Assembly (NCBI GenBank): GCA_011316305.1
Contig: SAUG01000082.1
Location: 248,001-312,000, forward strand
Direction: 5' to 3'
Origin: Rusavskia elegans
Lineage: Eukaryota > Ascomycota > Lecanoromycetes > Teloschistales > Teloschistaceae
Length of the DNA stretch: 64,000 nt
Below the pieces are notes generated by a model that was not told where the DNA came from, did not search any database, and was given only the letters and a program-made list of their open reading frames with translations. Shown here one piece after another: positions 749 to 8,406 of this stretch (position 1 is the first letter of the stretch; every line of letters begins with the position of its first letter). Both the position numbers and the translations under genes were made by a program.

Positions 749-2249
749 AAAATTTTATTTTAATTTTTTAAATATATTTTTTTATAATAAATCTACTAAA
801 AAAGCAGTTTTTTCTAAATATATTACTATTATATTTTAATAGAATTTTATAAATTTAAAAAAAATTTATATTATTTATATATTTTTAGATATAGATTATT
901 TTTTTTTAATAATTTTAGTTAGTTTTTTTTTATTTTGGTATTTCCCGTTTTTATTATAAAATCGAAAAATATTAAAATTTTTTTTTTACTTTTAGGTGAT
1001 ATTTTTTTAATTTTTAGATTATATTTTTAAAATTTTTATAGAATTTTTACTATATATCGTTTGAATTTTTTTTTATTTACGATAATATTAGTATATTATC
1101 TTTATATATTATAATAAAGATAATAAAATAGTTATATAATATTTTATTAATTGTATATTATAAAGTTGTTGATATATTTATTAATCTAAAAAGTATTATT
1201 AAATATTTTAATAATCTATATTTTATTTTAAATACAATTTTGTATTTATTTCGATTTTTTACTTTTATTAGATTAAAAGTATTTTTTAGATCGAATTTTA
1301 TAAATCATTTAGTTTTCCTTATTTCAATTTTAAAATCGGTAAAAAAAAAAACTTATTTTTTTATATTATTATATTAAATAGTTCATAACTAATATTAAAT
1401 CGATAGAGTCTATTTTTTTATTAGTATAAATATAACCGATTATTCTATATTATATTTTGAATATTTTAAAAATTTCAATTTAAAGATATAATTAATATAT
1501 TATTTTAATACTTTTAATTATTTATTTTTTAATCTATATATTAATTCAACTGTTAGCCTTTCCAAATGTATTATAATAATCTTATAATCCATTTAATTAT
1601 AAACTAGAAAAAATAGGTTTTTTTTTTCATGTTTTTTTAGTATTTTTTAAAACTTTTTAAATAGTTATAGAATTTTATTTATAGCTACTATTTGCTTTTA
1701 TATTTAGTTCTTTCCGGATATTATTTTATTTTCGGCTAATTTTTTAGATACACTAAATTAATAGCTATTTATATCTATTTATATTAGCATTTACTTAATT
1801 TTCGGCTTCTATTTAGACTGGCCGTCGGGTCGGATTTTTCTACGGTTCGACCCGACTCGAACCCGGGTCGGGGTCGGATATCCGGGTTCGACCCGCTAAG
1901 ACGCTAAGATCGTGTATAAAAGTATAATCCTAGTATTAAAATATAATTTTTTTTATACGTTATATTGCCTATAAATCCCTATTTTTTTCTAACGATATAT
2001 TAAAGAATTTAAATATTTCTAATATTAACGTATTCTAATATTAACGTATACTATTTAATATTATCTATTAAATAGTTAATACTATTTATATTATTATTTA
2101 GTATCTATATATCTATATTATCTTTTTGTATTATTATTATAGAAACGTAATATAAAATATCTAATATAAATATCGATCCTTGCCTTTTTAATTTCTAGAC
2201 CGATACGTCTAGCGAAGGCCTTTCTACTAAGTAGTTTTAATAATAGATA

Positions 2250-4414
2250 GCCTATCTAAAATTATATATAAATACTCTTCTAAAGTTTTTAACTATTTTA
2301 TAACTTCTAGTTCTTTAAATATATCTACTATAAAGAAATATCTTTCGACTAATAGTTACTACGGATCCAAGCGACGCAATATATAGTCTATTATTAAAGT
2401 AGTAATTATCCGCGTAAGTAGTAAATAGTAATATAAAGAGATAATATAAAGTTTATTTATTTAATAATAGAAGAAAAGCTATATTAAACTGGATTCTACT
2501 TTCGACTAAAACGCCTGGAATAAATACCTATATAAGACTTTCTTAGATCTAAATCTATCAGTCCGGACTATCGAAAATAAGAATTTTAGAAAACTACTAT
2601 AAATACTTAGTCTAGATATATAGCTACTTAAGCGTATATAATTTATAATAATAATTTTTAATAAGTATATAACTATCCGCGATAGAATTAAATCTAATTT
2701 AAAAACCGTAGAATATATTTTATTTATATTAGATACCTGGTCTAGTCTATAGAAGGTTTCGTATTTAGAAATATTCGTATACTGGATTAATACGCAATTT
2801 TAATTTTATAAACGTCTATTTGGATTTATATTTTTATCTATAAATTACTCCGGCCGTTTATAGTACTAAAAGCTATTAACGCTTTTAGAGTTTTTCCAGT
2901 TTAAGCAGCAGCTTTTAGATATTATTACCGATAATACTAGCTCTAATTCTACGTTAAAAAAAGAGCTTGAAAAGACTTTTAATCGATTTAATAGTCGATA
3001 GAATTAATTATAAAACTCGCTATCTTGTCTAGCTTATATAGTTAATCTAGTAGCCTAAAACTTTATTAAAGATATTAGATTATAAATATTAAGTGATAAC
3101 TTTATCTATTAGCTAGATAATAAGTAAATTACGGCTTTTACTATCGGCTAATCGAATATTATAGAAAAGGTAATATACGTAGGTAATATAAATTAAATAA
3201 TTTTTATACTAATAGTATTTTTAGGCTCGCGCTATTACAGTCTATTCCGGTACTTCCTCTTAACGTAAGCTTCGTTTTAAAGAATTTTAAGATAGAGCCG
3301 ACCCTAATTCCTGCGCTAGGACCTATATTTAAGATATTTATATTCGATAGAATTCGATTTATCGTATAATTCGTAGGGTATATCTACTTCGCTAAACTAT
3401 TAATAAATTCCTCGAAGAGAATTCGCGAGACCTATAAATATAAAAGATTACCTTTAATATAGATAAATAGTAATCTCTTTTCCTTATAGATAGTATACTG
3501 CAGCCGTTCTATAAAATTACTTTAATAGTTTCGCGAATTACCGGCGTTAGAGTTTATCTAGTATACCGATTTTATAGTACGCTTTACGATTATCTTACTA
3601 AAGTATAAGAAGTTGTAAAAGCTTTAAACTATCTTTAAAAGGCGATAGTACTAACAGCTTGCGAAAAGGCTTTTACTAAATTTATTAAATATTATTCTTA
3701 TACTAAAAATAAAGAAAGATTAATATATAACCTTGCGAATATTTTTAATTCTATAGTAAAGTTTAACCTTTATCCGAACTGTGATACTATTAAATAGGAG
3801 GCAGATATTAAAGAATATTCGGTATATATAGATAAATATCGGGACGAGTTTAAGAAACACTTTAATAAATACTACAAGGCCTCTGTTAATTTACTAAAAT
3901 ATAGAGCCCGCCGTAGAAAGGAAAATGAAGTAATATATAATAGTAATATATTATAAATATACTAACTAATTAATAGCCTACTATAACTACTTTAAATAGT
4001 TTTCTTCGATAGCTTTAATATTTTCGAATACTTGCTTCCGAAGCTGATCGATACCTTCGTATTATTACTATTAAAGATAATCTAAATTAGAAATCTTAGA
4101 AAAATAATGCTTCGAACTTTCTAAAATTAGTATAGATAGCTCGCGATATTCTTTCCTATCTAATATCCTCGGTCGGAATTAAACGGACTTTTAGTTTTAC
4201 TAGAAGAGTTTATCGGTAGAATTAAGCCTAAATAACTCTATAGTATATAGAACAGACGATATTAATAAAATACTATAACCGTACTATAGATTTAGATCTC
4301 GACGAAGTATTAGAGGAGCTATAGAATATATTTAATCGGGTAAAAATAGAGGATAGCGCTATATTATTAGAAAGGGAACTATTTAAAAAGAATTTTAAAA
4401 GTATATTAGATTGA
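2250..4414 (+). pseudogene. hAT transposase
   Basis: Cut-and-paste transposase relic with a DDE/RNase H-like core and C-terminal dimerisation domain. Readable motifs are a DTWSS block at about 2735, ITDN near 2924-2935, and CLAYIVN at 3026-3046, where the usual His of CLAH is Tyr through CA to TA. A C-terminal hATC block SSVGIKRTFSFTRR at about 4166-4207 is followed by acidic and Leu-rich helices up to a TGA at 4412-4414. Internal stops are TAG/TAA at Gln-like positions. The N-terminal BED finger is too damaged to place, so the start is uncertain. The family is certain; activity is impossible in this copy. Confidence 0.85.
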
Positions 4415-4479
4415 TTAGCCTAGTATACTTTTTATTTAATATTAGTATAGTAATATATATAGGTAATATATTCTTTCTA

Positions 4480-5480
4480 GACTATTATTCCTCGATCTAT
4501 ATAACTAGTTAGATAGTTTAATATTTCTTTCTATATTTTTATCTTTATCTTTTTTTATATCTTTATCGTTATCCGCCTCCGCTTTCTTCTCTATATCTTT
4601 ATTCTGACTATTAAAATTAATATTTCTAGCTAAATTTTTACTATTTCTAAGTTTAGTATTATCCTATATAGAAGAGTATCTCCCTACTATCTGATTCTTT
4701 TTATTAACTTTAACGATATTATCGCTATTCTTTTCCTCCTTTCTATAAATAGACTTAATATATTTATTAGCCGTATTCTCGCTATAACTAAACTCTTTAG
4801 TAAATACTATCTACTCTTCTAGAAAATCTAAAGCTCTAGCGGACTAAAGCTTTTAGAAGCCGGTATAATAGATTATTTATTATTTAATAAAATTAACGAT
4901 TAGAGCTATATACTTCGTTAAAATTACTCTATTCGGACTATTAATAGTAATATTAGACTAGAGAAAATATTAGAAATAAATATTCCTATACTAGATAGTT
5001 CTATTTATATTCGATATATTATCCTAATATATTACTTTCTTTTTTTTCTATTTTATCTATTCGATAGTTATCGACTTTTCTATATCTTTTATAAAAGCTT
5101 TAGTACGTAGATCGTTTTCGTAATATAATACTATATATAGATAAGTATTTAGTATAGTATATATTATCTTATTATATTACTATAAATCTCTTTCTCGACT
5201 CTATAGTCTATTTTCTAATCTCTAGAATTTTATTTTAATACGGCCTTCGTTCTTATATCTACGCTTTTCTAGAAATCTATTTCTTTGAATTTCTTAAAAT
5301 ATTTATATATTATAATACGGTCCGTACTCTATTTTTTATAGAGTTTATATTCGGTATCGGACTATTCTTTTCCGCGTTTATAACTTACGACTAATTTAGA
5401 TTTCGTAGATAGTAGTTTTAATTTAGATATAGTAGATAGTATACTAAATAATATAGTAGGATAATATAATTAGTAGCTAT
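4480..5480 (-). pseudogene. Opposing second reading frame of the hAT element
   Basis: Between the transposase and the histone-like gene lies a minus-strand coding relic whose stops are only TAG/TAA. The N-terminal half (about 5480-5060) is basic, with blocks such as YKRGKE and KYFKKFKEIDF. The C-terminal half (about 4960-4490) reads in another frame, with GFQKL, SARALDFLEE and a Lys/Asp-rich tail. A frame change near 5050 may be an intron or an indel. Total length would be about 330 residues. No known domain was recognised. The high charge suggests a nucleic-acid-binding or accessory protein, which is inference only. Confidence 0.45.
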
Positions 5481-5845
5481 AGAATTATCTAAAAATTCTA
5501 CGTATTATAGTATTAGAATACGCTGGAAGTTTATAGAAGTATACGGGCTCGTTTAGAACTCTAACCGTCTAGCCGTAGTATAGCCGACGATTACCTAAAT
5601 AACTTTACTTTACTTCTAATTTCTATTCTTTAATAATTAAATACTATAATAAGATATTATTATACTATATATCGTACCGTATTATATTTTATTTTATTAT
5701 TAGTCTTTCGTTCCTTTCGTTCGTCGCAGCGTAATATATAATATATACGAATTCAAATAGAGAAAATATATTAAAGTAATATAATTAATTATATAATAAC
5801 GCTAAAACTATTCTAGATAAAAAATTAATTCCGTTTTATAGAAGT

Positions 5846-6354
5846 ATAGCGAAGACTCGAGGAGATAGAATTAGGAAAGATAATAGGAAAAGTAAAAGGA
5901 AATTTTATAGTACTATAGTTCTAATAATACTCTAGAGTAATATATTCTAGATAATCTAGCTAATAATCTATTAAAAGAAACGTAAATAGAAGCCTAAAAC
6001 CGTCGCTCTTCGAGAAATCCGTAGATACCAGAAAGGTTTCGAATCTTTTATTTCTAAAATACCTTTCGCTAGACTATATCGCGAAATCTTTACCGATATC
6101 GCTGCCGTAAATATAAATAGAAGAATCGATAGGATATAAAATAAAGCGTTAGTAGTTCTATAAAATACGATAGAAGGATTTATAATTACTTTTCTAATAA
6201 GTAAATATATTATCTTATTATTTTACTATATATATCCGCCTATATTTATTTTTTATAGATTATTAAATAGCCGTAAATCTATACTAAACGCGTTACTATT
6301 TTATAAAAGGATACCTGATTTATTAAAAGGTTAATATAGAATCTGGAGGTCTAG
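5846..6354 (+). pseudogene. Histone H3 / CENP-A-like gene carried by the hAT element
   Basis: The frame starts at an ATA (probably a mutated ATG) followed by Ala-Lys-Thr-Arg. It runs through a basic tail to the H3 alpha-N/alpha-1 signature [12 protein letters not shown] at 5999-6034, then [12 protein letters not shown]. The alpha-2 equivalent ALVVLQNTIEGFIITF reaches a GT at 6201, and 6201-6258 looks like a 58-bp GT-AG intron. The second part carries YTKRVTIL.KD (6280-6312), matching the H3 motif AKRVTI..KD, and ends at TAG 6352-6354. Loop 1 is about six residues longer than in canonical H3 and the tail lacks the ARTKQTARKS pattern, both more like centromeric CenH3. Stops inside are TAG/TAA plus one TGA. 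Joining the two parts needs a 1-base shift. Fold assignment is firm; function is unknown. Confidence 0.8.
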
Positions 6355-7063
6355 CCGAAAATATAACGATAGCTAGTTAATAATAAATTTTAAAGAATTA
6401 AAAGCTCTAGAGAAAAGATATACGTCTGTAAAATTATTTAGGAAAGGATAATACTATTTATATAGTATCGATATATAAGTTAATATTTATAAATAACCGT
6501 TATATAAACCAGTATTAAATAGAATATATTACCCTTTTATATTACCTATAATTACTTTCGTATTTAACTATCGAATTCGATTACGAGTCGGGTCGGGTCT
6601 AGTTTTCGGGTCGGATTCTCGAGTTAAAATCTATAACTCGACCGTTTAGCGAATCGAACTCGGGTCGGATTACTAAGATCGGGTCGGATACCCGACGGTT
6701 CGATGGAAACCCGACCCGAACCGGCCAATCGACTTCTATTTTATAAACTATAAAATATCTAAATAGATATTTTTTATAAATTTTAAAAATATTAATAATA
6801 ATTTTTTTTCTATATTTATTAATTATTATTATATATCTAAAAAATCTTGTTTAAAACTAGATTTTAATAGTTTCTATTCTATCAATAATGTCTATAAAAT
6901 ATAGTTCTTTTTTTCTAATAAAAAGAATATTAAATTCTTTTATATAATCTTTTAATATCAAAATTCTAGTAGTTATTAATTTAACTAGAGCTTTTATAGG
7001 TTATTCGAATATTATTAACCAGATAAAAAGTCGATTTTTATCTATTTTCCGAAATTATTAAAA

Positions 7064-7940: not shown

Positions 7941-8406
7941 TAGACTGGCCGTCGGATCGGGTTTCGAATCTAAATTAGAAAAATCGACCCGATCTAAATT
8001 AGTTTCGACTTTTCTATATATTAAACTAACGGATTTTTAGTTCCTAATTTATAATCCGATCCGACTCGATTCGAAACTACTAAAATATTAAAATATAGTA
8101 TAATAATATAATTTTAGTATAAAAGTTATATCTATCTATCTAAAAAAAACTTTAGTTAATTAACTACGCTAGCTAGAAGGGTTTTAGTTAAACTAAATAA
8201 ACTATTTAAATATTTTAGTCTTATATATAACTTATTAATAAATTTAATATAATATTATACTATTAATAATATTTCAGCGGGTTTCTATTTAATTTTCGAA
8301 TTCGACCCGACTCGAACTATTTAGCGAATCGGTTTAACTGATTTATTTAAACTCGATATAGATTCCTGTAGTATCGATAGAAACTCGTATCGAAGTAGCC
8401 AATCTA
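7941..8406 (+). mobile_element. hAT MITE, type 1
   Basis: A 466-bp non-autonomous hAT element. The left end tagactggccgtcgg and right end cgaagtagccaatcta are terminal inverted repeats with GC-rich subterminal blocks; the middle is TA-rich and contains ttaactacgctagctag. Target duplication is agtaaata (7933-7940) against aataaata (8407-8414), a G/A difference expected from RIP. There is no coding capacity. Relatives are at 21092, 31790, 36826, 45024 and 47856. Confidence 0.85.

Follow-up and report, generated by a model that had tools for sequence, protein, structure and literature searches.

The window analysed here is a stretch of 64,000 nucleotides (G000:C202:248001-312000) from the 44.16-Mb assembly, in 217 contigs, of a lichen-forming fungus. 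It is high in AT and depleted in CpA and TpG (0.20 and 0.22 of expectation), and across positions 1801-6735, which cover the element described below, the two values fall to 0.08 and 0.15. Judged from composition, high AT together with this depletion is the mark of repeat-induced point mutation (RIP). The features of the window, and the host genes with which they were compared, are collected in Table 1.

Table 1. Features of the hAT element and its histone-like gene (H3L) in window positions, with histone genes of the host by contig
Feature	Position	Strand	Remarks
hAT element, 4919 bp	1814..6732	+	RIP-degraded; terminal/subterminal inverted repeats GC-rich; ends read directly
Target site duplication, left copy, 8 bp	1806..1813	.	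CTTCTATT; same letters as 6733-6740
Target site duplication, right copy, 8 bp	6733..6740	.	CTTCTATT; from sequence
hAT transposase gene, degraded	2200..4420 (approximate limits)	+	several frames, stops throughout; dimerisation domain near 3' end
Central region, possibly a degraded gene	4440..5570 (approximate limits)	-	inferred from translations
H3L exon 1, provisional	5846..5917	+	short Gly/Lys-rich tail; possible start at 5846 reads ATA, perhaps a mutated ATG
H3L intron 1, probable, 72 nt	5918..5989	+	fixed stop before KPGT; donor GT counts
H3L exon 2	5990..6200	+	15-residue segment, alpha 1, long loop 1, alpha 2
H3L intron 2, 58 nt	6201..6258	+	58 nt in most copies; once excised, loop 2 follows alpha 2 in the register of H3
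H3L exon 3	6259..6366	+	loop 2 (YTKRVTI), alpha 3, short C-terminus; contains the 1-nt insertion of the window copy
Host H3 (L001)	C139:343685-343951		introns read from frames: after MARTKQTARK and at KPG/TVAL
Host CenH3 (L002/L005)	C209:440326-440669		intron read from frames: after FSRLV
Third, divergent H3-like host gene (L004)	G000:C214:42716-42943	-	on a 78-kb contig

The terminal inverted repeats begin TAGACTGGCC on the left and, as reverse complement, TCGATTGGCC on the right, and the perfect 8-bp duplication reported in a preliminary description of this DNA, made without database searches, flanks them. The left-end regions of 16 other copies were fetched, 12 of which stop short of a readable end. 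Among the four with a readable end a right end was also available in three, L110 having none to pair with its left; the duplication agreed at 8/8 positions in L014 and at 7/8 in both L013 and L026, each with a RIP-type difference. The hAT dimerisation domain (PF05699) was found in the transposase part at 24.5 bits (cut-off 21.4), while two other pieces of the transposase gave nothing above the Pfam cut-offs, the one weak match, to CTE_SPB4 (E 0.23), lying far below. Target duplication, inverted repeats and dimerisation domain together identify the element, from its sequence features, as a hAT DNA transposon.

The minus strand of the central region holds a lysine-rich candidate degraded gene, of which two pieces were searched against Pfam with no match. 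A short relative of the element with the same terminal sequences (TAGACTGGCCG..) occupies window positions 7941-8406 (466 bp), is flanked by an 8-bp duplication, AGTAAATA/AATAAATA, that agrees at 7/8 positions with a RIP-type difference, and looks like a MITE of the hAT family. A GC-richer stretch at about 520-735 of the window was found again in L092 beside a remnant of the histone-like gene and looks like part of another dispersed repeat.

Between the transposase and the right end the preliminary description had placed a gene resembling histone H3, here called H3L, and searches with a histone profile bore this out. When the whole genome was scanned with the Pfam Histone profile (PF00125), the window locus scored 34.5 bits (E 6.8e-7), and the matches also included two more copies, both broken. 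PF00125 matched all seven H3L copies scanned, and the raw translation of L013, with X at stops, reached 51 bits (E 2.1e-13, cut-off 26.4). A profile built from the seven copies found solved histone H3 chains at E 2.3e-17, all of the best 60 of its 174 PDB matches being named H3. H3L thus belongs, by these profile matches, to the histone H3 family.

The copies of H3L are numerous. At least 97 distinct loci are present in two lists, a further five having been recognised in fetched DNA. In the DNA search for H3L 40 of 614 candidates were scored. A query of the genome with the histone fold returned 88 places, which comprise the host H3 (one), the two exons of the host CenH3, L004 (one) and 84 others; the 57 of these 84 that were missing from the DNA list were fetched and all aligned to L013. 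No intact copy of H3L was found by this query. L004 is a 105-amino-acid open frame with 36/68 residues identical to the host H3, and a 12-residue H3 motif that is present in H3L was not seen in the frames surrounding it.

The association of H3L with the transposase was followed through the 40 loci scored, out of 453 candidates, in a search of the genome with the transposase. In 32 of the 40 (27 according to the lists and five from fetched DNA) an H3L region followed downstream on the same strand, no farther than 3.5 kb away, so H3L commonly accompanies the transposase, and a single chance insertion does not account for it. The remaining eight varied. H3L was 7.8 kb distant in C77, partial before the match breaks off in C15 and C209:934445, and cut off by a break 69-105 bp into the region, ahead of H3L, in C8 and C41:20534, though on C41 an H3L locus follows after 8 kb; the C67 locus runs into a contig edge, and C212 and C174 had no H3L match in the 1.1 kb fetched. 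H3L is a regular part of the hAT element and moves with it, although up to four copies could lack it.

Every aligned copy is decayed. None of the 92 aligned copies has an open H3L, each carrying between 4 and 13 stops in the proposed exons (seven in the window copy), and from its sequence the hAT/H3L system in this genome looks dead, inactivated by RIP. The exons as first drawn were free of frame-breaking indels in 27/30 copies of a first alignment and in 43/92 of the larger, and the three exons now proposed in 46/92, or 42/70 within the larger subfamily. In 59 copies, stops within the gene's first 355 nt average 8.4 per copy when read in the H3 frame, and 15.0 and 12.5 in the two alternatives. 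Three copies, L064, L065 and L099, pass from H3L into one shared foreign sequence, the junctions lying at different places within exon 2 or at its end. Transversion distances divided the 92 copies into subfamily A (70, including the window copy), subfamily B (12) and 10 outliers, several of them truncated or interrupted, which were excluded from subfamily counts.

The preliminary description read all of the H3 motifs in one frame. The 12-residue motif and the stretch resembling alpha 2 do share a plus-strand frame, but YTKRVTIL is in another, which is explained by a 58-nt intron between them together with a 1-base insertion. The insertion, near 6275, occurs in the window copy and in none of the 29 others aligned with it, and splicing of the window copy does not restore a continuous frame. 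The intron is 58 nt in 29 of these 30 copies and 57 nt in one. Within subfamily A it is 58 nt in 59/70 copies and ends in an acceptor AG in 61/70, while the donor is GT in 6/70 and AT in 56/70. The scarcity of donor GT is read as RIP damage because L013, the copy of highest GC among the 92, retains GTAAGT. An intron after alpha 2 is therefore well supported, though not proven, by the aligned copies.

A second intron probably precedes KPGT. The codon directly before KPGT is a stop in all 69 subfamily A copies with letters there, in contrast to the stop columns of the proposed exons (those with a stop in at least two A copies), 17/17 of which retain sense codons in at least three copies; an intron is likely on account of this contrast. 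Its donor is GT in 49/70 A copies and 12/12 B copies. An intron-free reading across 5918-5989 was considered and dropped in view of the invariant stop. The putative start is ATA in subfamily A and a CTG/CTA- or TTA-type codon in subfamily B. The position of intron 2 is found in neither the host H3 nor the host CenH3, while intron 1 and one of the host introns are about three codons apart.

The question of which H3-type histone H3L most resembles was addressed by alignment and phylogeny. H3L shares the histone H3 fold with the host H3 and CenH3 and differs from both in its longer loop 1, short Gly/Lys tail and different introns. Loop 1, whose greater length the preliminary description had noticed, is by alignment six residues longer than in the host H3 and about three longer than in the host CenH3. 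A loop longer than that of H3 is a CenH3-type trait, insufficient alone for assignment to CenH3, and H3L is without the loop-1 tryptophan (RWQS) of the host CenH3. L013 is identical to the host H3 at 41/86 positions and to the host CenH3 at 39/98. Some likeness of the Gly/Lys tail to that of H4 was noticed and set aside on account of low complexity. An ARKS/TARK-like motif was seen in 0/70 subfamily A tails, a count to be read with the knowledge that RIP may have erased some and that indel-bearing tails are read out of frame. The host CenH3 itself has relatives at 91% identity in Calogaya, 89% in Polycauliona, 88% in Xanthoria parietina and 87% in Squamulea, and at 99% in Xanthoria sp. 1 over 46% of its length, which points to a fungus within the Teloschistaceae or close to them.

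The tree was built from four of the 70 A copies, three of the 12 B copies, nine CenH3 sequences, the host H3, L004, two database H3 variants and human H3. All sequences from the element group together in one clade (100/100), and those of CenH3 make up a second (100/100) that does not include H3L. In AU tests a tree constrained to place H3L with CenH3 was borderline (p = 0.0504) and one placing it with H3 was not rejected (p = 0.34). A caveat that applies to these results is that the H3L branch is lengthened by RIP damage and that the three B rows are odd in letter make-up. The two database variants, P0001 and P0002, were the only matches when about 8000 word-sharing candidates were scored in a protein search with the seven H3L copies; both are H3 variants placed apart from H3L in the tree, and no relative was found. 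A like search with the transposase pieces, again scoring about 8000 word-sharing candidates, also found no relative, and both searches were limited by RIP damage to the queries and by a word-based first look. Identity as a CenH3 is supported by neither the tree nor pairwise identity. H3L is best described, from its alignment and its place in the tree, as a divergent H3-type histone that groups with neither H3 nor CenH3.

Comparison of the subfamilies offers a moderate sign of purifying selection on the fold. A and B have each retained the fold as well as the two introns. Within the fold, codon positions 1/2/3, with 101 sites apiece, carry 9/8/20 transversions between A and B (p = 0.0075 by a one-sided binomial test), exon 2 being the source of the third-position excess (4/6/15). 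No excess was found in exon 3 alone (5/2/5), in the tail, which in the exons as first drawn covers the initial 49 codons (6/3/4), or in transversions common to at least seven A copies, which represent younger variants (2/2/3), and rare transversions within A are distributed 97/88/88. The introns differ between A and B at 4/71 and 5/56 sites, below the 20/101 of third codon positions, so these positions are not plainly neutral; the flanks differ at 8/51 sites upstream and 11/72 downstream. The signal thus may reflect constraint on the fold, with no echo in introns, exon 3 or younger variants.

The preliminary description knew of no hAT with such cargo, but two groups have been reported, both from plant pathogens of the Dothideomycetes. 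In Pyrenophora tritici-repentis, according to the available text of Manning et al. 2013 (PMC3538342), a 5.6-kb hAT has terminal inverted repeats, a transposase, a central ORF and H3L, and is present as 10 full copies and 16 of a 2.3-kb short form, all nearly identical; only two of its H3L genes are frameshifted, ESTs for H3L are reported, and the protein is placed in neither H3 nor CenH3. The element described here is like it in being a many-copy hAT with inverted repeats, a transposase and an H3-like gene belonging to neither the H3 nor the CenH3 group. In layout, transposase, H3L and inverted repeats are all present and the central gene is only tentative, though the central region could match the 'central ORF'. 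It is unlike it, as far as descriptions can be compared, in its length of 4.9 kb, its at least 97 loci with 0/92 open, its two subfamilies and the class of its host.

The second group was reported from Pseudocercospora fijiensis and five other Mycosphaerellaceae, the genera including Pseudocercospora, Cercospora and Sphaerulina (Dhillon et al. 2019, PMC6710886). As far as the accessible parts of that paper go, each genome has 135 to 784 copies, every one inactivated by RIP, an 8-bp target duplication is shown in P. fijiensis and Cercospora zeae-maydis, and the element has no nucleotide similarity to that of Pyrenophora. P. fijiensis has 784 H3-like copies, with one or two in each full-length element of 9.5-9.9 kb, and its H3 seems to have entered the element as an intronless transcript or a retrocopy. 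The present element is similar in its 8-bp duplication, H3-like cargo and RIP-inactivated copies, and differs in the introns of H3L, one following alpha 2 and a second, probable one ahead of KPGT. A literature search found no report of an H3-carrying hAT in lichen fungi. The element is a further H3-carrying hAT, from a third fungal lineage and a class different from those of the earlier two groups. What is new, as far as was searched, is the fungal class, the divergent intron-bearing H3L in two subfamilies and the moderate indication that its fold was under purifying selection.

We consider it somewhat probable that this RIP-dead, multi-copy hAT carries in H3L a formerly working gene for a variant H3 that acted in chromatin. 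That H3L was once a working gene making such a histone is most likely; its role is one that we infer. While the element was active H3L would have made a variant H3, which may have paired with H4, and H3L-H4 would then have changed the chromatin of the element or of its targets and kept it accessible. The working idea is that a short tail with no readable ARKS/TARK could not bear the silencing marks of normal H3; the lack of the motif in the A tails suggests, without showing, an escape from tail-based silencing.

The reading that comes closest, to which we would give rather less than an even chance, is that of passive transduplication, in which the hAT took up a copy of a host H3 that became a functionless, drifting hitch-hiker. 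The captured H3 of P. fijiensis reads as a passenger killed by RIP in the available account (PMC6710886), and drift is suggested for the Pyrenophora H3L in that of PMC3538342. The distance of H3L from the host H3, the stops in all 92 copies and the lack of a codon-position signal in tail, exon 3 or younger variants agree with this. Set against it are the lean of A-B differences in the fold towards third positions, the retention of both introns in both subfamilies and the occurrence of H3-carrying hAT elements in what are now three fungal lineages. The divergence of H3L, its apparent splicing and its occurrence in two subfamilies argue in particular against a recent capture.

It is also conceivable, although we think it unlikely, that H3L, rather than being a repeated capture, has long been an integral gene of a hAT lineage found across several classes of filamentous fungi. 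It would then be a transposon-encoded histone devoid of H3-tail silencing sites that remodelled the element's chromatin so as to evade heterochromatin or aid transposition.

The proposal of the preliminary description, that a captured CenH3 targeted or perturbed centromeres, has become very improbable. The length of loop 1, the divergent tail and the borderline AU value are in keeping with a CenH3, but the CenH3 clade excludes H3L with full support, the loop-1 tryptophan is absent and identity to the host CenH3 (39/98) is set against 41/86 for the host H3; a centromeric role is unsupported. That the resemblance to H3 is due to chance or to AT-rich sequence has next to no likelihood, as low-complexity translations do arise from RIP but the E-values of one raw copy and of the solved H3 chains, with PF00125 in all seven copies, refute it.

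One-off hitch-hiking is made less likely by a third fungal lineage with an H3-carrying hAT, which also allows testing of whether transposons encode histone variants of their own. Should selection on H3L be found in relatives with intact copies, the gene would encode a histone that belongs to a transposon and functions in chromatin.
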